DNA of 32,472 nt from a virus. This document shows positions 12,160 to 31,897 of this stretch, piece after piece (the first letter of the stretch is position 1; each line of letters opens with the position of its first letter). The position numbers and the translations under genes were made by a program. The notes beneath the pieces were generated by a model. That model saw nothing but the letters and a program-made list of their open reading frames with translations. It was not told where the DNA came from and did no database searches. The stretch spans positions 1-32,472 of IMG/VR virus record IMGVR_UViG_3300036425_000002. One strand, written 5' to 3'.

Positions 12160-15100
12160 TCATACCCCAGAGGTAACTCCAGCACCACGCAGCGGTGCCC
12201 AGGCATCGGCTCTGCCCGTAAGAGTGAGATGCGACAAGTTGAACCACGACCCAACAGCGTTGGACGATACTTCTACGAATATTCTAATTCCATAGACATT
12301 TAGCGGGCCTTCATAGTCATTCGGCGCGCTGCTTAAAAGATTCATTCCACCAGCTACGGTAAATGGGTATGGAGCGCTCAAGACATTCTGCAAGAAACGA
12401 ATTTTCGCTGTGCCACTTCCATATGCCATGAAATCCCAGTAGATGAATCTCTTGTTAAACATCCCGAGAAGCGGAGTTTCTTGCGATCCCTTCTTATCCA
12501 CAAAACCATAGGTAGTGTACAAGGAAAGGAATACCGTTCCGTTGTCATTACCATAAGTGCTAGTATCCAGCTTCGAGATTTGCGAAGAGGAAATTCCGTT
12601 GCAGAAAACGATCTCGCTATTCAATTCCGAACGCTTGATAAAACCGATGTACGGAGTGGCGATAGTCCACAGAGAATACTTGCGGCGCATATCTAGTGCA
12701 GCAAGACTGCCCATCATCGTCACATGAAGAGCTTGCGCTTCCATCAACCCTTCAACGGTAGAAATTCCTTCCCAGTTAAGAAGGATGACGACATTATTGT
12801 ACAAAGGATCAGTCACAGTGGGTTCATCGGGGAGCCACGTATTTGGCGTGCTCATCGGACAAGCGATGTAAATCCGGCGGTTCGGGAAATCATTACGAAC
12901 GCAGATCGTCTTTGCAGCATCCCAGTTAATAGCGGACCAAATATCTGGGATTTCAAGCTGAATCGGGCTTGGAGTTCCTCCATTAGATACATACAGCCCA
13001 GATTGATTGGCCATGATCGCCCAATCTTCGCCATAGTCGTAGGCGTTGATTCCGCAAGCACCAGCCACATTGGAAATCTCTTCAAAAGGATTCCACGAAG
13101 TAGGCTCAACTCCCTGCGTTTCGGAGAAGAACCCCATGGAATTTTCCTTCAGGATATATAGCCGTCCGCGCATGACGAATCCGCCATTGGTAGGCTGTTG
13201 GTTCAGGTTCGACGTAGTAAGTTTGCCCGTAATTTGGTCATAAGAGTCCAAGTTGTCTTTGTAGCTTACACTCAGGTCGGTAAGGTTCACCGGATCAATT
13301 GTGGGAAACAACTCTATCCTGTCAATTTCAATTGCCGCTCCGGCAGGAAGGTTTTCTGCCCAAACTCTGAAGTACAGATCGCTCGGAATTTGGGTAGTGA
13401 ACTCGCTCGTGAGCAGGGTGCCCTCGTAGGTCGCCATAGAACTGGCCATACTAGATAGAGCCAGGGTGTAAGTACCGTAGGTTGTACTCCATCCAGTACC
13501 AGAGTTGTATTCGGACAAATCGATTACAAGATTGCCGCTGGTGGAAGAATCCATCTGCCGGCAGGTCACTCGAACAGAGTAAAGGGTATTCGTCTGCAAA
13601 ATAGCTACCAGACTTTGGTCCTGATAGACAGACTGGGCAATCATCCCGTAGCTGCTGATCGTGGCGCTAGTCGAATTATCGATATACAGCGCATCTCCGT
13701 AGATAGGGGAAATCGCGAGAGAAGCGCCGGAGTCGTAGGTATTCCACCCAAGAGGTGTAGTCGATCCAGAAAGATACCCGCCATCAAAGCTCATATTGAG
13801 CATGTTCTGGATTTTGTTACGAACCTTACCCCATACCATGCGGCCAGCGTACTGGATATTCCAAGCAGAGTCTCCAAGCTCTGCAAGATTAAACAGATTG
13901 TTCCCGTCAATATCGATCTCTGTTGCAGCTAAGAGAACGGTATCGGTGAATGTAAACTTCGCATAAGTCGTCGTGTTGTCGTTAATGATAAGCTGCGACG
14001 ATGTATAGGTTACGCTGTTGTACACAAACTGCACAGGAGTAGGAATCGTGTAATAACTTGCTCCGGGGACACCATCAGAACCAGCCTCTGTGAATGCAAT
14101 GCCACGGGCGATGACTTCGGGCGGCCCAATAGGGATATTCGACGCCAGGATATAGTTGGCATTCGTGCTTACGGTAAATTCGATATAAGGTGACGGCGCA
14201 GTCCAAAATCCATTTCTCGTGATAAAGAATACAACCCCTCGGCGGGTTCCTGTAGAAACTACGACGACTGTAGAGCCGACCACCTTGATGTATCCGCTAG
14301 ATGCTGTTCCATAAATCGGGCTGCTTGTCGTGCCGAGGGTGAGAGGGCCGGGGTCAATGATGAATTGCGTGCCAGAGGTTGTTGCTGAGCCTTCTTCAGT
14401 TTCCGAACTGTAGCTCAAAGAACCGTCAAATCCTTCAATAGTAAATGTTCCAGAAGTGCTACCGGTCACGTTGCTGATAGAAGCATCAGTGACATTAAAG
14501 ATCAAGTCTCCATTGGTAGTACCGAGAATGGTGACGAGTTGCCCTGCGGTAGGAGCCACCGTCGTGCTTCCAGAAACTTCCCAACTATAGGTTGCCACAC
14601 CATCCGTCATCGCCGTTTCTGTGATGGTATAGCTGCCATTGTACGGGGTATACAGAACAGTCCAAGTGTTATCCCATGAGGTCACACTGGCATCCGTAAT
14701 AGTGATCTGGTCGCCAGTTTCTACACCGGGGAGAGAGTTCGACGTGACAACCGTTGCAATCGTCATCTCGTACCGACCGGCAGCAGAGTTATCTCCGCTC
14801 TGAATCTTCTGGTAGCTGCTCGATGTAACGCTATAGGTGAAGTAATACCTCTCGGCACTTGCTCCTGGAGGCGTTCCTTTTCCAATTGACGTTACGAGAA
14901 AAGTCCCATTCGCTACACCAATTGCGGTGCCAGTAACATAGACATATACAGAATACAGACCGCCGCTAAAAGCCTTATCGAGAACCGTGTCCTCAACAGT
15001 TCTGCTGTAGTAGATCGTAATGACGTTTCCGCTACTGGTAGAGCCTACTCCGGCGCTCCACAGGATGCCGTCAAATCCAGTCTGCGAAGTAGGTTGTGAC

Positions 15101-16947
15101 ACGTTCTGCGTAATGCTGCTGATTGCATAGGTATATTGACCAGTAACGGTTGCCGTAGATGTACCGCTAGCAGTTGTAACAAGCGTAGAAGAGATTTCAA
15201 ATGCAGTTGTGCTAAGCCCCGTTCCAAGGACATTGAAGCTGAGTCCATTCAGCGCATAAAGTGCATCAGACGATGTGGCGGTAAACGCTACTACCTCTCC
15301 AGCGGTAAAGGTATTGGCCGCTGTAAGGGTGAGAATTCCGCTGGAGTAGGTGAATGCCGTAACAGTTGCCGATCCTGTCGTAGTGAGCGTTCCTGTAAAT
15401 GAAGGAGGAGCACCGGGACCGCACTGGGAGACCCTGTCAGCCCATTCTGGCTTGTCGGTATACTGCATCGGTGGATAATTGCCAGACCCTCCATTGGTCA
15501 TCAAGGATGACACATATCCGGTCTCGGTCCCACTGGTATATCCGTCACTAAGAATTCCATACTTGAAGGTGAGCGTGTCTGTGCCAACAGCAGTCAAAGT
15601 GAACGAGGTATTCATCCAAGTATTATTGGTAGCACCAGAGATAGAAATTGTATCTCCGGCAGAGTATCCAGTTGCCGAAGTCAAAAGGGTGATGACGGTT
15701 TGCAGCCACGTTTCGCCGGAGATGACAACCAGTGTGCACACAACGCTGCTAATTGCCGTGTGCAGGTAATCCCCGCTGGAAATTGCCATATACAAGCGAG
15801 AATTCGCGTTTGCAGCAGTAGCGTAACTATTTACTGGAACGTCTATAATGTCGGTGAGCGACGTAAGAATTCCTGGATTGCTTGTTACATCCTCTACCCA
15901 AAAATCTCCGTTTGCATCGAGAGCGACATTCTTGATATTCCCGAAGCTATCTTCATAGGTAGAAATTAGGTTGAAATTTGCAGACGAAGTCGATCTGCTT
16001 ATAGTAATCGAAACATATTCAAGATAGATTTCTGATGTAGATTCATCCGGCGCAGTAAAACACACACCGAATTCAGTGCTATTTACTTCGTCAGCAGATA
16101 TAGCAGTCCCCCACAGATCGGTGGTGCTACCTAGCGTAATAGAGCCTTCCGACGTGGGAAGCGATATTTGCTTCAATGTCCCGGCGACACTTCCGCCAAT
16201 GATTAACTTAGCATCGATAGAGGCACTCGCCGAATACCCTTTAAGAGTGACCGTAACGCCAGTGATTGACGAGGAAGATGGGATACTGAACCCGAATCCT
16301 TCCACGAACAGGCTATCACTTACATTTTCATACCCACTAATCGCGGCTGTTCCAGTTTCTGTACCGGAACTCGTGTATGTTCCGCTGGAGTTAAACCCGG
16401 TCGGAGGATTCGATAACAAAAGATCAAACGCAATCGTGTTTTCAGAGAAAACAACATCGGAATAGCTGAGGGATACACCGTTGAATGCAGTGTCTAAAGT
16501 CATTCCAGACAGCGTGACAGTTGACGAAGAATTGCCTGGGTCGGTTACTGTGCTGGTAAAAGTAAGCGTGATAGTGTAATGCCCAATCGACGGCGCATGG
16601 CTTACGACTGAGATTCTGGAGATTGTCCAGTCCTGGGAATACGTTCCAGAAACGTCAATTGATGTATAGGACGAATCATCGAGAAGAATGTTTGTCGGAC
16701 TATTCCATGCAGTAGTTCCATCGGCTTGATCTACAGCGGTGCTTCCACTGTTCGGTCCAGAACTCCCGCCAGAATAAGAATAGAGGTTCTTTAGGCCGGG
16801 GCGAGTGTAGACGCCTCCCACGTTGTAATCAACATTTTGATTTCGCGGGGAAGCGCCTTCAGGAACGCACTCAGGCTGCGCAAGGGTCACAAGCCCATTG
16901 AAGGATTCGAGTTGTACGGAGCTTCTTCCTGTTTGATTGTGACCCAT
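12160..16947 (-). CDS. Very large gp10-like DNA-stabilisation/tail hub protein with inserted Ig-like repeats
   Basis: This 1595-aa protein starts at ATG 16947 behind a GGAGCAGGA site. The N-terminus (PEGASPRNQNVDYNVGGVYTRPGL, quoted in part) resembles the opening of P22 gp10-like packaged-DNA stabilisation proteins and tail-tube B-type hubs: an early statement of positions followed by TRPGL. The last 400 residues also look hub-like, with WAINWDAA-type, VRNDFPNRRIYIACPM and SLWTIATPYIGFIKR segments of a beta-propeller. Between them, about residues 60-1100 are Thr/Ser/Gly-rich repeats (for example LTLTAANTFTAGEVVAFTAT) that look like Ig-like or similar beta modules. P22 gp10 is about 470 aa, so this one is more than three times longer. 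It probably joins the portal/connector to the tail fibres. Confidence 0.6.
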   Translation of the reverse strand: MGHNQTGRSSVQLESFNGLVTLAQPECVPEGASPRNQNVDYNVGGVYTRPGLKNLYSYSGGSSGPNSGSTAVDQADGTTAWNSPTNILLDDSSYTSIDVSGTYSQDWTISRISVVSHAPSIGHYTITLTFTSTVTDPGNSSSTVTLSGMTLDTAFNGVSLSYSDVVFSENTIAFDLLLSNPPTGFNSSGTYTSSGTETGTAAISGYENVSDSLFVEGFGFSIPSSSSITGVTVTLKGYSASASIDAKLIIGGSVAGTLKQISLPTSEGSITLGSTTDLWGTAISADEVNSTEFGVCFTAPDESTSEIYLEYVSITISRSTSSANFNLISTYEDSFGNIKNVALDANGDFWVEDVTSNPGILTSLTDIIDVPVNSYATAANANSRLYMAISSGDYLHTAISSVVCTLVVISGETWLQTVITLLTSATGYSAGDTISISGATNNTWMNTSFTLTAVGTDTLTFKYGILSDGYTSGTETGYVSSLMTNGGSGNYPPMQYTDKPEWADRVSQCGPGAPPSFTGTLTTTGSATVTAFTYSSGILTLTAANTFTAGEVVAFTATSSDALYALNGLSFNVLGTGLSTTAFEISSTLVTTASGTSTATVTGQYTYAISSITQNVSQPTSQTGFDGILWSAGVGSTSSGNVITIYYSRTVEDTVLDKAFSGGLYSVYVYVTGTAIGVANGTFLVTSIGKGTPPGASAERYYFTYSVTSSSYQKIQSGDNSAAGRYEMTIATVVTSNSLPGVETGDQITITDASVTSWDNTWTVLYTPYNGSYTITETAMTDGVATYSWEVSGSTTVAPTAGQLVTILGTTNGDLIFNVTDASISNVTGSTSGTFTIEGFDGSLSYSSETEEGSATTSGTQFIIDPGPLTLGTTSSPIYGTASSGYIKVVGSTVVVVSTGTRRGVVFFITRNGFWTAPSPYIEFTVSTNANYILASNIPIGPPEVIARGIAFTEAGSDGVPGASYYTIPTPVQFVYNSVTYTSSQLIINDNTTTYAKFTFTDTVLLAATEIDIDGNNLFNLAELGDSAWNIQYAGRMVWGKVRNKIQNMLNMSFDGGYLSGSTTPLGWNTYDSGASLAISPIYGDALYIDNSTSATISSYGMIAQSVYQDQSLVAILQTNTLYSVRVTCRQMDSSTSGNLVIDLSEYNSGTGWSTTYGTYTLALSSMASSMATYEGTLLTSEFTTQIPSDLYFRVWAENLPAGAAIEIDRIELFPTIDPVNLTDLSVSYKDNLDSYDQITGKLTTSNLNQQPTNGGFVMRGRLYILKENSMGFFSETQGVEPTSWNPFEEISNVAGACGINAYDYGEDWAIMANQSGLYVSNGGTPSPIQLEIPDIWSAINWDAAKTICVRNDFPNRRIYIACPMSTPNTWLPDEPTVTDPLYNNVVILLNWEGISTVEGLMEAQALHVTMMGSLAALDMRRKYSLWTIATPYIGFIKRSELNSEIVFCNGISSSQISKLDTSTYGNDNGTVFLSLYTTYGFVDKKGSQETPLLGMFNKRFIYWDFMAYGSGTAKIRFLQNVLSAPYPFTVAGGMNLLSSAPNDYEGPLNVYGIRIFVEVSSNAVGSWFNLSHLTLTGRADAWAPLRGAGVTSGV

Positions 16948-24491: not shown

Positions 24492-25103
24492 CTATGCCTT
24501 GCCCAATATGGCAGGTCTTGTCATTCCGAATACCGGTTTGACCCGATGATTCGTACCGTCAAAGTAAACCGCCAGAACGCCACCCGGCTTGACTATCTCT
24601 GTTTTGTACGGGTCAACGTCAATATCCTCTGTGAATTTCACCAAACTTGTCATCACGCTTGAATGTGTCACAAAAGCAGTGAGTCTACGCTTGGACATTT
24701 CAAACGCGGCCTTCCAGAAGGCAAACTGCCGATCGTCAAAGGAGCAAAGGCTTTCTCCGTCTGGAATCTTCACCTCTGGGTTATTGATGAACAGCTTGAG
24801 GGCTTCATAGTTCTCGTCCCTCGGCATTCCGCAGAAGATTCCCATGTTCCAGGGGAAAAGCCCTCTCGTCTGTGAAGGGATCAATCCATGGGGCTTTGCC
24901 ACAACATGCGCCGTCTGAAATGCTCGTAAGAGCGGAGAGCAAACCACCTGCTTGATCGGTTTGTCTTTCATGAAATCCGCCGTCTCGCCTACCTGCTTGA
25001 ACCCATTGGCGTCCAGAGTCCCATCATTCCAACTACGGAAAACAGGAACGGTATTGGCGGAAGTTTCACCATGCCGGATCACATAACAGACGAGCTTATC
25101 CAT
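24492..25103 (-). CDS. Histidine phosphatase (phosphoglycerate mutase-like) superfamily protein
   Basis: This 203-aa protein starts at ATG 25103, overlapping the portal stop as TAATG. It has the complete branch 1 signature: VIRHGETSAN with catalytic His11 and Arg10, CSPLLRAFQTA with Arg60, and AFVTHSSV with the second His147. An acidic residue in the middle region (GMPRDENYE, 92-100, or DGESL, 115-119) could be the proton donor. In the family the first His is phosphorylated during removal of phosphate from sugars, nucleotides, proteins or other small molecules. It is found between portal and scaffold, an unusual place for an enzyme. It may act on a nucleotide or a cell metabolite during infection, or be packaged; the substrate cannot be told. 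Confidence 0.85.
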   Translation of the reverse strand: MDKLVCYVIRHGETSANTVPVFRSWNDGTLDANGFKQVGETADFMKDKPIKQVVCSPLLRAFQTAHVVAKPHGLIPSQTRGLFPWNMGIFCGMPRDENYEALKLFINNPEVKIPDGESLCSFDDRQFAFWKAAFEMSKRRLTAFVTHSSVMTSLVKFTEDIDVDPYKTEIVKPGGVLAVYFDGTNHRVKPVFGMTRPAILGKA

Positions 25104-27601
25104 TACAGCCGCCTCCGGGTACGCGTCTTGATTTCTGCCATCGGCGTACGTTGAATCGACTCGACCTCCGTCTCATTGGGCTGATTCATGCTATCGGGTG
25201 GGGTGCTAATCCCTGCCGCCAACTGGAGAAGCTGCGCTTGTTGCTCGGGAGACAGTTTGCCCGTGAGCGAAACCTTCGGAGGCGCTGCCTGTGCTTGCTT
25301 GAACTGCGCAGCTACCTTTTTGTTCTGCTGCCAGTACAGATAGACGTTCGTCCACTTCTTCCAGTTTTCTCCGCCTTCTTGCTCCTGTCCAGACTTGCGG
25401 CGCAGAGAACGTCCGTGCGGTTCGCCCATCCAAGAGAGCACAGTTGCCGCGATAGTGTCATGATCTTGAGAATCATCCTGAGCAACTTCGACGCTCGGGA
25501 AATATTTGTCCATCTTGTCGAACTGGTCCTTCAGGTCATTTACCTGATCCTGCATTTCTTGACCAGCCTGTATTTGCTCCTGCCCAATTTTCCCTGTCTG
25601 CGCAGCAGCAGAAGCTACCTGCTTGGCTTCTTCGTGCATGGCATTCATCTTCTCATAGTGCGACTTCATCTCGACCCACTCTGGATTGATGATAGGTTCG
25701 CTGTCGAGAAGCCTGTCGATATCTTCAAGCGCCGCGTCTTCCCAGTTTGCCTCATCAATCGTAATCACACCATCCATGTGGAGAGCATCGACGATTGCTT
25801 TTGCATTCGACGGTTTGCCAACTTCTCCAGCAATTGTGGGGTTGAGTTGAGCCATGTCGAGAATCTGTAAGACCTTAGCTTCGCGGGCAGAACCGCTTTC
25901 GGGGATGGAGTTCGAGGTCTCTGCCTTGCACTTTACGTTTCCGCCAAGGTTCTTCGGACTCAGCACAAAATCGCCATCATCCGACGAGTATTCTGTATCC
26001 TGGCCATTATTTGCAAAGCACCCAACCGCCTGAAGCAACACTCCCTCAAAGATACTGTTGATTACCTGCCATGGTCTCTGGTTACGCTCAAGTGCCTGAC
26101 CAAGGCGAATCTGCGTAGCTCCTACGGTGTTGTCCGATCCTTCTCCTTGGCCAAATAGTGCAGGTGTACCGCCATCGATTGCCTGGATCAGAGGGCCTAC
26201 ATACTGTAAGAACATGGAGTCCATACCGGGGATAGGCGTAGGAGAAGGAGTCTGGCCTACAATGTCTTGCATGGTCTGTCCTTCACCTGGCTTTACCCCA
26301 ATTTTTCTTCCAGGATCGGCATTTAATTCATTGATCGCTTCCATGTTGAAGCAATCGCTATCCAACAACGTCGCGGGAATAGCCTGTCGCACGAACTTAT
26401 CCCACAAATCCGCCCAAATGTTGATTCTTTTCTGGATGGGCAAATCATTGGACCCGAGTGCACGGCGATTCTGCCCGAAACCACGGCAGAACATTCCCAT
26501 GGTCAAGTGGTCGTCCATCGACTCATTCCAACAGGCCACGACTTCAGGACCGGCCATAATCAGGAACATGCCGTCAGGAAAGTTCTTTAACAACCACTCG
26601 CGCTGCGCTGGAGTAACAGCATCATCGTAGAAAATGCCAGGGCGGAACCAGTTGTATCCCATCGTGCATTCTCGGATACCGCTAGTGCCAGTGATGTACT
26701 TGCCTACAATGCCGATCCTTGTGTTGATTCTGGCAATGCGCTCGAATTCAAGCTCCCCAAATGTTCCCCAACTCGGCTTGATCTTCTTTCCCATCCAGGG
26801 ATACATGGCACGCGCAATCGAGTAATCCATTTCCTCGAACAACTGAGCGTAGCCCATGTCCTTTAGGCAATCAGCCATCATTGGGAGCTTTGTCTCAAGC
26901 ACTCCAAAAGCGCTCGACATTTCAGCGCGGCGCACAGACCCGTCATCCGCAAGTCCAAACCGGCTCTTGTCTGCAACAGTCCGAGTCCACACTACGGCAC
27001 GAGGATCAGTCCACGCCAAATCAGATAGATAACGCTGGAACTCTCCTGCACAGTTCTCTTCATACCACATGCACTTGTATTTATTGGCTTCATCAGCAGC
27101 CATCACATCTGCTGGCTCTTTCTGCCTATTAGGCGAGAAGTTCACCGTAACCGCGCCACGGTTCAAACAGGAAGTGATAATGTCTCCCTGAGCAGAGTAT
27201 ATATTTGTAGGGTAAAGATTGGCATCGTCCATGTCGCTAAGGGAATTGTGCCGAGCAGTCGTGAGTCCGTTACCGGCCCCCATGACATTCCATCCACCAT
27301 TCTGACTACCTTCAAGGTATTGATACCCTCGATCGAAGTGGCGCTCTTGCCAACACTGCAACACGCTGAAACGGCGTGCAGCTTCATCCGTCGTGCTCAC
27401 GGTGTTGACCAGTGTCGTCAGCAGCCCAATAATTGTTGGGTCTTCCTTCTTGATATCGTCCGGTTTCCACACCATCTCTGTGGTGTAGATAGACGGAGCG
27501 AGTTCTCCCGGCTCATATTCTTCTGCAACCGAAAGCTCTTCTTGCTCTTCTTGACCAAGATCATTCGCCGAGGACGGCATCTGGACAATGTCTGTTGGCA
27601 T
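25103..27601 (-). CDS. Portal protein
   Basis: This 832-aa protein starts at ATG 27601, overlapping the previous stop as ATGA. It begins with a polar, acidic N-terminus (EEQEELSVAEEYEPGEL), then segments with portal character: AARRFSVLQCWQERHFDRGY, GAVTVNFSPNRQKEPADVM, DEANKYKCMWYEENCAGEFQ, WFRPGIFYDDAVTPAQREWL. The central part with PTPIPGMDSMFLQYVGPLIQ and GSDNTVGATQIRLGQALERN resembles the stem and clip region of P22-type portals. The C-terminal 190 residues are Gln/Ala-rich helices (AKQVASAAAQTGKIGQEQIQ), like the long barrel of P22 gp1 (725 aa). Twelve copies form the channel for DNA entry at the capsid vertex. Size and position between terminase and scaffold support the call. Confidence 0.8.
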   Translation of the reverse strand: MPTDIVQMPSSANDLGQEEQEELSVAEEYEPGELAPSIYTTEMVWKPDDIKKEDPTIIGLLTTLVNTVSTTDEAARRFSVLQCWQERHFDRGYQYLEGSQNGGWNVMGAGNGLTTARHNSLSDMDDANLYPTNIYSAQGDIITSCLNRGAVTVNFSPNRQKEPADVMAADEANKYKCMWYEENCAGEFQRYLSDLAWTDPRAVVWTRTVADKSRFGLADDGSVRRAEMSSAFGVLETKLPMMADCLKDMGYAQLFEEMDYSIARAMYPWMGKKIKPSWGTFGELEFERIARINTRIGIVGKYITGTSGIRECTMGYNWFRPGIFYDDAVTPAQREWLLKNFPDGMFLIMAGPEVVACWNESMDDHLTMGMFCRGFGQNRRALGSNDLPIQKRINIWADLWDKFVRQAIPATLLDSDCFNMEAINELNADPGRKIGVKPGEGQTMQDIVGQTPSPTPIPGMDSMFLQYVGPLIQAIDGGTPALFGQGEGSDNTVGATQIRLGQALERNQRPWQVINSIFEGVLLQAVGCFANNGQDTEYSSDDGDFVLSPKNLGGNVKCKAETSNSIPESGSAREAKVLQILDMAQLNPTIAGEVGKPSNAKAIVDALHMDGVITIDEANWEDAALEDIDRLLDSEPIINPEWVEMKSHYEKMNAMHEEAKQVASAAAQTGKIGQEQIQAGQEMQDQVNDLKDQFDKMDKYFPSVEVAQDDSQDHDTIAATVLSWMGEPHGRSLRRKSGQEQEGGENWKKWTNVYLYWQQNKKVAAQFKQAQAAPPKVSLTGKLSPEQQAQLLQLAAGISTPPDSMNQPNETEVESIQRTPMAEIKTRTRRRL

Positions 27602-28522: not shown

Positions 28523-31033
28523 CTATCCGATGTTATTTTTCCATGACGGCGGCATGATCCTTCTCGCCACCTTCTGCTTACTGAATTGATGCTTGAATGC
28601 AAGTACCAAGCGCTCTTCAGGCGTTGCCGCTTGCATGTTGATGTTGTACTTATCTTCGGATGTTTTGTGCTTTGGTGCAAGCATCGACTTCAGGGTATAA
28701 CGGCAATTATGGACGAGAAATCCGTTTGCATAGAACTCGTGTTTCCCGTCTACCTCAATGTCGTACACATCCGCGTATCCCGCCTCCTGCAATCCTACTA
28801 ACCGAACTGCACTCTCTGCTGCAATGCAATGTCTTGCTGTATTTGATGCATCTGAACTCTTTGCCGCATACCTTACACGTCCTTTGGACGTAGTCGATCT
28901 TTCTTGACCTCCGCCAAGATGATTTGCAGTTGTTAGAGCAGAACTTTCCTTTGGTTGTCCCCAAAAAAGTCTTTCCGCACTGTGCGCACGTTCTTTCCTC
29001 CCTTGCGAATACGATGCTCCGCGCGTGCTGAGAGTGCCACTCTCTTCCTTCTTTTGACCAGTGCCATTCAGCAGCCATAGGGCGAATCTCCGCAAGATGC
29101 TCAGTCTGGTCTGGCCTATCAGGTTCATGAATCTGCACGTGCTCTTTCGGCGTGATACACGCGAGCTTAGAAACGTCCGTTGTGCTCTTGGGAGAATGGT
29201 TGACGTGATGGACGATATTTCCGCTAGGTATTTCTCCCTTGTAGTATCTCCATACTGCCCGGTGTAAGAACTCAGACCCATCGGAGTAATATCCGTCTTT
29301 CCTGATTTTGTAGATTCTTCCGTTAAACTCGACTCTGTCCATATGGTAATTTTATCAGAATAACGGATAGAATCAAGGCTTACAAACCCTCTGTCTGTCA
29401 AAAATCTGTGATTCGGGGTGCATATTACTGTGCGCCCATTGCTGAATATAGCGCGAACCACTGGGGCGTATTCTCTCGTCATCCATGAGTGAGTTACACG
29501 GTGCCATCCTTCACGTGTCATTACCTCATCAGAGTCATCTACCCGTTCGATTGGAGCATATCCACGCTTTGTCAAAACTGGTGTTCCGGCCACGAAACAA
29601 GCGTCTGCTACGTCCTGCTCAATCTTCGCTTGTCCCTTGTCCGTCTTGAGCACATCATCCAGATTCTTTGGATCACGCATCAGAATCGGAATGGCCGCGA
29701 GTAGCTCTTGGCACTCAGCAGAGATCAACAAGGCATCGGTATACTGGAATCGCTTGCCTTCCTTATCGATTCCCCATCCTTTGCCCTTTGTCGCCCGCAT
29801 CATCTTGTCGATGAGCATCCATCCGCCAATGCGCTCATTGTCTGCCTTGACCGGCCCTGGCATCCCATCGGCGTGCAGCACAGCACCCATCTGATACCCT
29901 ACGCAGTTCGGGTCGTCGGTGCATTCCTCGGGACTCAGGAAGAACGATCGGTACTTGCTTCTCTCATCCGGCGGCGTGCAGTCGATGATCGAATGACCTA
30001 CCTGCGCCGCGTCCATTTCATTGACAATCATCTCGCGGTAGATCGTCGTTACCTTGATGCCTTCAGGAACGTCCCACCCCAACGCTGCCTTGGCCTCTGA
30101 CGGGCTGAGGTTGATGCGTGTTGCCCAGTACACTGCCGTGTTGTGCGTCTTGCCCCAGTCAGCACCTAGCCAATAGCTGCCCCACGGCTTCCACAGCTTG
30201 GCAATCGTACCAGGACCTACGCGGACTGATTCCAGATCGAACGAGTTGCTGAAGTACGTGCCCTCAAGAGAGTCCCAGTCGCCTTCCCAGTCCGCCTTGC
30301 GGATCACAGCATCATCAGACGCCAGAGAGTGTGTATAAGGTCCGCGCTTGGCGGCGTAGCTCTTGCGCTGCTCATCGGTCCATCGGTAGTAGTCTTCCTC
30401 GTTGTAGCCGTCTTCCTTCAGCGAAGCTCTGACCCACTCGATGTTATCCCAAGGGTTCATCTTCAGAAACACATAGTCGCCAGCATCTTCGTCTTTGTTG
30501 ACTTCATGCAGGTAGAACCACTTCCTGAGTCCAGCAATGCCAGCGCCGCGCATGTTGAACAGCAGCACCAGCTTTGCTCTCTCGCCGCCCTTCACGCGGT
30601 TTGCCTTACGAACCTCGCGGAGTTCACGCTCTGAGAACTGCTCTGCCTGATCGATGAAGATGTATTTGTAGTTGGCCGACCTGAAGCGTCTTTCAATGTC
30701 ATCGATGTTCTCTGCATAGCTGAAATCTAAGCGGCTCTTGCCAATGTAGACATTCGCGGGCATTGTCTTCTTCATGGACTTCTCAAGGAATGGGAAGTCA
30801 GTGGCAATCGCTTGCATGTGGTACTTGTACACCTGATCGTAGTTGCGCATCATCATACAGGCGATAGTTCCAGGGCGTTCCGCGAGGAGTAACGCTGCTA
30901 CTCTGTCAGCCCCTGCGCTCTTGGCAGCGCCACGACCTCCACCAATGCCAATGACCGGCGCAGGATCATCACGCACCAGCCTCAACATCTCAGCCTGTTT
31001 GGGCTGTAATCCAATATGGATGTTCTTATCCAA
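28523..31033 (-). CDS. terL: Terminase large subunit, interrupted by an intein
   Basis: The frame starts at TTG 31033 (GGGGTG upstream; no in-frame ATG before residue 15). The 836-aa precursor comprises 478 residues of terminase, a 298-aa intein (479-776) and 60 further terminase residues, so the spliced protein would be 538 aa. ATPase features: a Walker A variant GGGRGAAKS (31-39), Walker B IFIDQAE (126-132, Asp129/Glu132) and LVLLFNMRG as coupling segment. Nuclease features: GADWGKT (Asp293) of an RNase H-like fold and QDVADA|CRY (Asp474/Asp477), which matches the DD..DA.RY metal-binding motif of the family. The intein lies within that last motif, so the nuclease cannot function until splicing. 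The enzyme translocates DNA through the portal and cuts concatemers. Confidence 0.9.
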   Translation of the reverse strand: MDKNIHIGLQPKQAEMLRLVRDDPAPVIGIGGGRGAAKSAGADRVAALLLAERPGTIACMMMRNYDQVYKYHMQAIATDFPFLEKSMKKTMPANVYIGKSRLDFSYAENIDDIERRFRSANYKYIFIDQAEQFSERELREVRKANRVKGGERAKLVLLFNMRGAGIAGLRKWFYLHEVNKDEDAGDYVFLKMNPWDNIEWVRASLKEDGYNEEDYYRWTDEQRKSYAAKRGPYTHSLASDDAVIRKADWEGDWDSLEGTYFSNSFDLESVRVGPGTIAKLWKPWGSYWLGADWGKTHNTAVYWATRINLSPSEAKAALGWDVPEGIKVTTIYREMIVNEMDAAQVGHSIIDCTPPDERSKYRSFFLSPEECTDDPNCVGYQMGAVLHADGMPGPVKADNERIGGWMLIDKMMRATKGKGWGIDKEGKRFQYTDALLISAECQELLAAIPILMRDPKNLDDVLKTDKGQAKIEQDVADACFVAGTPVLTKRGYAPIERVDDSDEVMTREGWHRVTHSWMTREYAPVVRAIFSNGRTVICTPNHRFLTDRGFVSLDSIRYSDKITIWTESSLTEESTKSGKTDITPMGLSSYTGQYGDTTREKYLAEISSITSTILPRAQRTFLSSRVSRRKSTCRFMNLIGQTRLSILRRFALWLLNGTGQKKEESGTLSTRGASYSQGRKERAHSAERLFWGQPKESSALTTANHLGGGQERSTTSKGRVRYAAKSSDASNTARHCIAAESAVRLVGLQEAGYADVYDIEVDGKHEFYANGFLVHNCRYTLKSMLAPKHKTSEDKYNINMQAATPEERLVLAFKHQFSKQKVARRIMPPSWKNNIG
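28706..29599 (-). mobile_element. Intein in the terminase large subunit nuclease motif
   Basis: Precursor residues 479-776. Block A starts at Cys479 (CFVAGTPVLTKRGYAPIERV); block B contains TPNH (539-542); block F is DVYDIEVDGKHEFYANG (755-771); block G is FLVHN with terminal Asn776, followed by Cys777 as first C-extein residue. All residues for canonical class 1 splicing (Cys1, TxxH, His-Asn, Cys+1) are present. The splicing parts add to roughly 120 aa, a normal mini-intein. The 180 residues between, about 566-745, are Ser/Thr/Arg-rich and resemble no known intein endonuclease in this frame. That interval coincides with an HNH gene in another frame. No introns or target repeats are seen. Confidence 0.93.
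28755..29342 (-). CDS. HNH endonuclease encoded inside the intein in a different reading frame
   Basis: This 195-aa frame starts at ATG 29342, on the third base of intein codon 564, and ends at TGA in codon 758-760, entirely within the intein. A TAA lies four codons upstream, so the start is fixed. No ribosome site is evident. An HNH_3-like core lies at 27-72: HRAVWRYYKGEIPSGNIVHH, with His45/His46 and Asn48, then ITPKEHVQIH. The downstream Asn of the usual motif is not obvious. Two zinc-finger-like motifs follow, Cys119/Cys122 with Cys135/Cys139 and Cys156/Cys159 with Cys174/Cys178, with basic segments SSWRRSRK between. Such fingers usually aid DNA binding. The likely role is homing of the intein into terminase genes that lack it. 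Translation must be by internal initiation, or is inefficient. Confidence 0.85.
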   Translation of the reverse strand: MDRVEFNGRIYKIRKDGYYSDGSEFLHRAVWRYYKGEIPSGNIVHHVNHSPKSTTDVSKLACITPKEHVQIHEPDRPDQTEHLAEIRPMAAEWHWSKEGREWHSQHARSIVFAREERTCAQCGKTFLGTTKGKFCSNNCKSSWRRSRKIDYVQRTCKVCGKEFRCIKYSKTLHCSRECSSVSRIAGGGIRGCVRH

Positions 31034-31269: not shown

Positions 31270-31458
31270 CTATTTCTTCTTGAGTGCGAATACGGACTTC
31301 TTCACACGTTTAGGTAGATTCTTCTCTTTGGTCGAGGCAAAATCACTCAATTGGCTCTTATCCATATCCAATACGCCGCGATTCTTGGCGTAGACTTCAC
31401 CGGGATTGTGCTCTGCAATGGCCATTAGCTTGCGTTGCGCCTTACTTGTTGCTGGCAT
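31270..31458 (-). CDS. DUF3008-like small protein
   Basis: This 62-aa protein starts at ATG 31458, overlapping the terminase small subunit by 17 bases, behind a TAGGAGGTC-like site. The opening PATSKAQRKLMAIAEHNPGE resembles the start of DUF3008 proteins (MPAxSKAQxRxMxxA...). The rest is basic with a FASTKEKNLPKRVKK segment. The function of the family is unknown; it is common near phage terminase genes. There are no membrane or catalytic motifs. Confidence 0.7.
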   Translation of the reverse strand: MPATSKAQRKLMAIAEHNPGEVYAKNRGVLDMDKSQLSDFASTKEKNLPKRVKKSVFALKKK

Positions 31459-31897
31459 TCTGACCTCCTACGTACTCAACAATGAATTTCACAGGTCCTC
31501 CATCATCTCCAGATACCGCGAGCTTTTCTCCGTATTTCTTAGGCAATAGCTTCATAGCAATCCACTTACGGGACTCAATTTGCAGTTTGCTGCGCTCAAC
31601 GGAATCGCCGACAGTGACCTCTTCCCCGCCATCAGCCTTAATGGTGATTTTACGAGCCTCGACGGGAGTATCCGCAAGCGCAATGATTTCAGAGGCATAG
31701 TGCTCCGCCTGGAGTTCCCTCGCACGCGCGTATTGCTCAACAAATTCGGGGAAAGCGTTGAGCCAATTATAGATAGTAGTTTCGGATGGGAAATCGGGAT
31801 CATTGCTGATTTGGCTCACAGACCTACCTAGAGCTATCTGCTCACAAATCGCATCTGCCATGATTTTCGAGTATGAGGATGGTCTGCCAGCGCCCAT
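31442..31897 (-). CDS. terS: Terminase small subunit
   Basis: This 151-aa protein starts at ATG 31897 behind AGGGAGATAAAT. It opens GAGRPSSYSKIMADAICEQI, typical of terminase small subunits of the GRP.. type. An HTH region follows at about 25-55 (LGRSVSQISNDPDFPSETT, then IYNWLNAFPEFVEQY), which would recognise the packaging site. A helical oligomerisation part (RARELQAEHYASEIIAL) and a C-terminal segment with RSKLQIESRKWIAMKLLPKKYGEK, a common motif of the group, complete it. It is the first gene of the late array and recruits the large subunit to DNA. Confidence 0.85.
   Translation of the reverse strand: MGAGRPSSYSKIMADAICEQIALGRSVSQISNDPDFPSETTIYNWLNAFPEFVEQYARARELQAEHYASEIIALADTPVEARKITIKADGGEEVTVGDSVERSKLQIESRKWIAMKLLPKKYGEKLAVSGDDGGPVKFIVEYVGGQNASNK

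Follow-up and report, generated by a model that had tools for sequence, protein, structure and literature searches.

The terminase locus and its intein

The window, by which is meant the whole stretch of DNA analysed (a virus record of 32,472 nt), has terS, terL and further genes on its minus strand. The features relevant here are as follows.

31442..31897 (-): terminase small subunit gene, Sf6-like terS, upstream of terL (PF20901, E 1.6e-36)
28523..31033 (-): terminase large subunit (TerL) gene with an intein, 836 codons (TerL, PHROG_2)
28706..29599 (-): the intein, TerL residues 479-776 (C1 to N298), followed by Cys777 as +1 residue (PF14890, TIGR01443, TIGR01445)
29339..29599 (-): N-terminal splicing half, with block A CFVAGTPVLT and block B TPNH (pLDDT mostly about 95-97)
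28811..29338 (-): TerL residues 566-741, the in-frame linker that joins the two halves; the HNH gene is overprinted on it, and it is predicted to be disordered
28706..28810 (-): blocks F and G (VYDIEVDGKHEFYANGFLVHN), which make up the C-terminal splicing half (last 30 residues with pLDDT about 95-98)
28755..29342 (-): 195-codon HNH endonuclease gene inside the intein, in the host +2 (= -1) frame
28755..28810 (-): last part (3′ end) of the HNH gene, overlapping the block F region; L223, a mini-intein, has the homologous intein residues

A first-pass annotation had proposed that the TerL frame is open for 836 codons and carries all of the splicing blocks, and this is so at the positions given above: blocks A, B, F and G are present with Cys1, TxxH, HN and the +1 Cys, and the Pfam Intein_splicing match spans TerL 509-776 (E 3.5e-11). 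The two halves belong to one continuous 836-codon frame and not, as in a split intein, to separate ORFs; nor is there an endonuclease in frame between blocks B and F, as in a bifunctional intein, the HNH gene being in the +2 frame. That the in-frame linker lacks endonuclease-like features is borne out by the lack of any Pfam match to it. In AlphaFold models of the intein the splicing halves have pLDDT of about 95-98 and residues 91-256 are mostly below 50, so that the splicing blocks can be predicted with confidence to adopt a Hint fold and the linker to be disordered. The best PDB matches to the intein model are mini-inteins and split inteins, including gp41-1 (6qaz, TM 0.86 by target). Elsewhere on the same strand, a 1595-aa ORF at 12160-16947 and an 832-aa ORF at 25103-27601, the latter in the usual position of the portal gene, have no PHROG match.

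The nested HNH gene and its active site

The ATG of the HNH gene starts on the third base of TerL codon 564, and the complete out-of-frame 195-codon HNH/zinc-finger gene called in the first pass is confirmed at 28755-29342 (-). Pfam HNH_3 (PF13392, E 2.3e-7) and the PHROG_15471 HNH endonuclease (E 2.4e-33) both match solely the HNH frame and not the TerL frame; the product carries two four-cysteine zinc-finger motifs and is modelled with a mean pLDDT of 92.7, with no confident match in the PDB by sequence or by fold.

While the canonical active-site residues are all present in most HNH relatives, the window protein has the substitutions D48N, N54T, N55T and N59K at positions where conservation among 160 homologues is 92-97%; the H-N-H motif has lost its central Asn in this way. 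Since these near-invariant residues are replaced, it is uncertain from the protein sequence whether this particular HNH protein cuts. It could be that the window copy is decaying, a splicing intein accompanied by a catalytically dead or repurposed HNH protein, a reading that touches the activity of this copy and leaves the layout uncontradicted. Speaking against decay, the HNH frame is open and is under purifying selection relative to L120, which itself lacks the canonical residues at these positions (most of the losses are common to the nearest relatives, L120 and L016), and both histidine motifs, all zinc-finger cysteines and every other near-invariant residue except N166 are retained. On this evidence decay is rather unlikely.

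How often, and in which frame, the gene is nested

Relatives were gathered by two kinds of scan, one seeded by the HNH protein only and the other by an intein C-terminal motif of 26 residues only, the N-half alignment being too poorly conserved to serve as a query; matches were ranked by similarity, and the proportions given here are among the matches listed and not unbiased frequencies. A tblastn search of phage records with the HNH protein yielded 25 records, and HNH-protein-seeded scans of viral and genome contigs at least 177 further loci. When HNH loci were sorted with a profile for each intein half, 116 of the 191 among the matches listed proved to be nested in a stop-free host frame, all of them in +2, the remainder having the intein halves in separate open segments (31), no detected intein (36) or one half only (8). 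In-frame HNH relatives, the case named beforehand as telling against the proposal, were sought and none was found in these 191 listed loci; +1 nesting is likewise absent from this HNH-seeded set. From the other direction, the intein-motif scan yielded 70 unique inteins whose two halves share a frame, and 64 of these, among the matches listed, carry an HNH gene in the +2 frame, which is thus the usual state in that scan; the other listed cases are one +1 nesting (L206), three mini-inteins and two long inteins without HNH.

Taken over both kinds of scan, at least 157 non-redundant inteins, mostly on viral contigs, have the overlap that the first pass had suggested looking for, in the same relative frame, and out-of-frame nesting of HNH in an intein is confirmed as real and general and not a one-off. 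Named phages in which the HNH gene lies out of frame in an open terL intein include Tetrasphaera phage TJE1, Acinetobacter phage Highwayman, Rhodobacteraceae phage LS06-2018-MD07 and a faecal phage; in Yuaviruses a freestanding HNH gene adjoins terL.

An endonuclease nested in frame as an intein domain is the textbook arrangement (general knowledge; PMC6801210), and it might be supposed that an ordinary intein of that sort has been displaced by frameshifts in sequencing or assembly. A sequencing frameshift is, however, excluded because at least 157 non-redundant relatives share the nesting in the same relative frame, with none in frame, and the window and L120 also align over all 195 HNH codons, at 68% HNH identity, with no indel; such an artefact is scarcely credible.

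The TerL intein of L206 has another zinc-finger/HNH protein nested in it, one that is longer (about 300 aa) and lies in the +1 frame; it seems to be a separate, independent occurrence of the out-of-frame layout. In L068, L039, L059, L182, L111 and L013 the N-intein, HNH and C-intein are on separate open segments, in several of them with a C-half start and its ribosome-binding site at the HNH stop; these are likely to be split inteins with the HNH gene between the halves.

An open host frame and what selection acts on

How surprising it is for the host frame to be open across the HNH gene depends on the null adopted. The initial estimate of about nine expected stops in the second frame was too high: re-coding the HNH protein with the codon usage of the window's own TerL gives 2.2 expected TerL-frame stops, with P(0) = 0.06, and re-coding with that of freestanding and split relatives gives 4.5, with P(0) = 0.01, so that the single locus alone is only suggestive. 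The decisive evidence is comparative. Host-frame stops number zero in 103 of 103 and, in a second set, 54 of 54 non-redundant nested genes of about 188 codons among the matches listed, as against means of 6.2 stops in the corresponding frame of 34 freestanding homologues and 6.6 in 27 split ones. The 'nested open' class is itself defined by absence of stops, so the weight lies on the finding that the majority of HNH genes with an intein half on either side belong to it. Stops in the third frame of the nested genes number about 20 (16 in the second set), and this would account for the use of +2 by the HNH gene.

Though both frames had been proposed to be kept open, and zero host stops uphold that, constraint on the two is unequal. 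The suggested per-frame comparison of synonymous and nonsynonymous change, made against L120, gives a pN/pS of 0.26 for the HNH frame but 1.13 for the host linker, and over many pairs the host-frame residues are conserved only slightly better than in freestanding and split controls. With such values, and a linker conserved much as in the controls, purifying selection is acting on the protein encoded in the HNH frame, and what is selected in the host linker is essentially an open, stop-free frame. The possibility of the linker being a conserved domain in its own right was rejected on its pN/pS, its low pLDDT and its lack of a Pfam match; the near-invariant glycines within it probably arise as a side effect of HNH codons.

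A different way to dispose of the insert would be its removal as RNA, by a group I intron, or expression of the whole as a split intein, the open host frame then being incidental. There are indeed 27 non-redundant relatives in which the intein halves occupy separate frames or have intervening stops, and several with a separate C-half start and ribosome-binding site at the HNH stop. Set against this, a search for a group I intron catalytic core found no Rfam match at E up to 1, and zero host-frame stops in the 157 nested cases among the matches listed point to selection for read-through, making removal as RNA or splitting most improbable.

Insertion site and origin

Among 21 loci with close TerL relatives readable across the insertion site, EQDxGDA|xRYLLKSML, the site is empty in 18, and the insertion is, as expected for an intein, precise, in frame and in a conserved host motif with empty homologues. 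The three occupied sites are in L273, whose TerL is 100% identical to that of the window and which is probably the same phage, L274, on the same contig as L120, and L292, whose HNH gene likewise does not share the frame of its host. At the same TerL site L223 has a mini-intein of 125 aa that is without exactly the HNH stretch, and the final HNH codons overprint intein residues that are also found in L223. Invasion of a mini-intein by the HNH gene, as originally proposed, is supported by this mini-intein and the 18 empty sites; both fit HNH entry, though L223 may instead be a mini-intein from which HNH was lost. A single origin of the nested state is unsupported, since the strongly supported branches of a tree of 160 HNH proteins force at least seven switches into or out of that state.

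Predicted expression of the nested gene

About half of the nested HNH genes have a Shine-Dalgarno-like site before the internal start, and the mean best Shine-Dalgarno energy is -4.4 at nested HNH starts versus -2.1 at control ATGs, the former being the best of several candidate starts and so biased upward. Neither the window nor L120 has a ribosome-binding site at the HNH start. What the window does have is a candidate promoter:

29349..29376 (-): sigma-70-like site, TTGATT - 16 nt - TAAAAT, its -10 being of the extended (TG) type

Its -10 ends 6 nt before the HNH ATG, and an RNA start at or near that ATG is therefore predicted. Against a synonymous-codon null the window's own site is not significant alone (p 0.10); the promoter-like score exceeds the null in 12 adjacent relatives without a Shine-Dalgarno site (mean z 1.93, p 6e-5), a result from the same data that gave rise to the promoter idea, and the excess is repeated in four new cases of this kind (p 0.001), but non-adjacent ones in the second set show it as well, which counts against the idea. 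An internal promoter for the HNH gene is accordingly best described as suggestive. Also telling against it, the mini-intein L223, with no HNH gene, has a perfect extended -10 where HNH would start, which may be a remnant of a lost HNH gene or a by-product of intein codons.

Programmed frameshifts of bacteria and phages commonly go in the -1 direction, and the HNH frame is the host -1 frame, so that ribosomes leaving the TerL frame might be considered as the source of the nuclease, in the form of an intein-N/HNH fusion. Yet in the window a stop lies close ahead of the HNH start, the frame being open over just 12 nt before the HNH profile match begins; inspection reveals no host-phase X XXY YYZ heptamer there, and in many relatives an ATG at the HNH start is preceded by a ribosome-binding site. 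Synthesis through -1 ribosomal frameshifting is thus very unlikely.

A probable dual-coded mobile intein

The explanation that we hold to be highly probable is that of a dual-coded mobile intein, in which an HNH gene lies within a mini-intein, out of frame with it, and its nuclease would be made separately and serve homing. An independent HNH homing-endonuclease gene would have entered, in the host +2 frame, a mini-intein of a terminase gene at the point where intein endonucleases are canonically inserted. Ribosomes translating terL would pass through the whole element, after which the Hint halves would fold and excise the intein, the stretch between them acting only as a stop-free disordered spacer. 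Internal initiation would yield the nuclease from the same DNA: about half of the relatives have a separate ribosome-binding site for it, and in the window an internal promoter may supply an almost leaderless mRNA. The nuclease would then cut intein-free terL of co-infecting phages, and repair of the break would copy the element. Splicing, internal expression, cleavage and homing are steps that we infer, and so is the decoupling of homing from splicing that the first pass proposed.

A wider version, which is possible but which we would put forward only tentatively, is that the dual-coded state is a major form of phage terminase inteins, with even the nuclease promoter overprinted (the codons for the conserved motif LDxLRYGDxI spelling a -35 and extended -10 that would lead to a leaderless mRNA), and that HNH genes have moved repeatedly between freestanding, split and nested states, the split state being a viable bridge.

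Relation to known systems

Intein endonucleases are taught as in-frame domains; in this one large group of phage inteins, an endonuclease gene in a different frame is usual. No description of an out-of-frame endonuclease in an intein was found in the full-text literature searched. The closest published case found is the ShiLan domain (Arsenault, Gosselin and Gogarten 2025, PMC11855218), an out-of-frame 195-aa HNH/zinc-finger gene in a phage methylase. The likeness extends to an HNH gene lying out of frame in an open phage host gene, to patchy distribution (PMC11855218) and, when checked on JN020143, to use of the host +2 frame. The host, however, is a methylase with no splicing domain, and the element is for that reason judged to stay in the protein (PMC11855218), whereas the window intein has complete splicing blocks; zinc fingers are on both sides of the HNH in ShiLan and after it in the window protein. 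What PMC11855218 describes is the layout, and not in an intein.

With bifunctional inteins that have an in-frame homing endonuclease, of the PI-SceI type or the HNH type (Dalgaard 1997, as cited in PMC5050341), the window element shares the Hint splicing domain, the canonical endonuclease insertion point and a location in a conserved host motif; the difference is that its endonuclease is in another frame and is no part of the spliced-out protein. Pseudomonas phages PAE1 and FBPa53 and Sphaerotilus phage SN1 have a member of the same HNH family (about 38-40% identity) beside terL, but there it is freestanding and not nested, and no intein was detected. In the fractured genes of Dassa 2009 a freestanding endonuclease reportedly separates the two parts of a split intein; an endonuclease gene between intein halves is in common, and gp41-1 is among the best fold matches, but the window halves remain one continuous open frame.

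An out-of-frame endonuclease leaves splicing and nuclease expression free to evolve apart. The freestanding, split and nested states amount to an observable path for entry of endonucleases into inteins, and at least 157 cases with one frame relation make up a rare, large natural set of overlapping genes for the study of overprinting. Standard annotation overlooks the nested nuclease: in TJE1, Highwayman and LS06-2018-MD07 the HNH gene is unannotated within terL.
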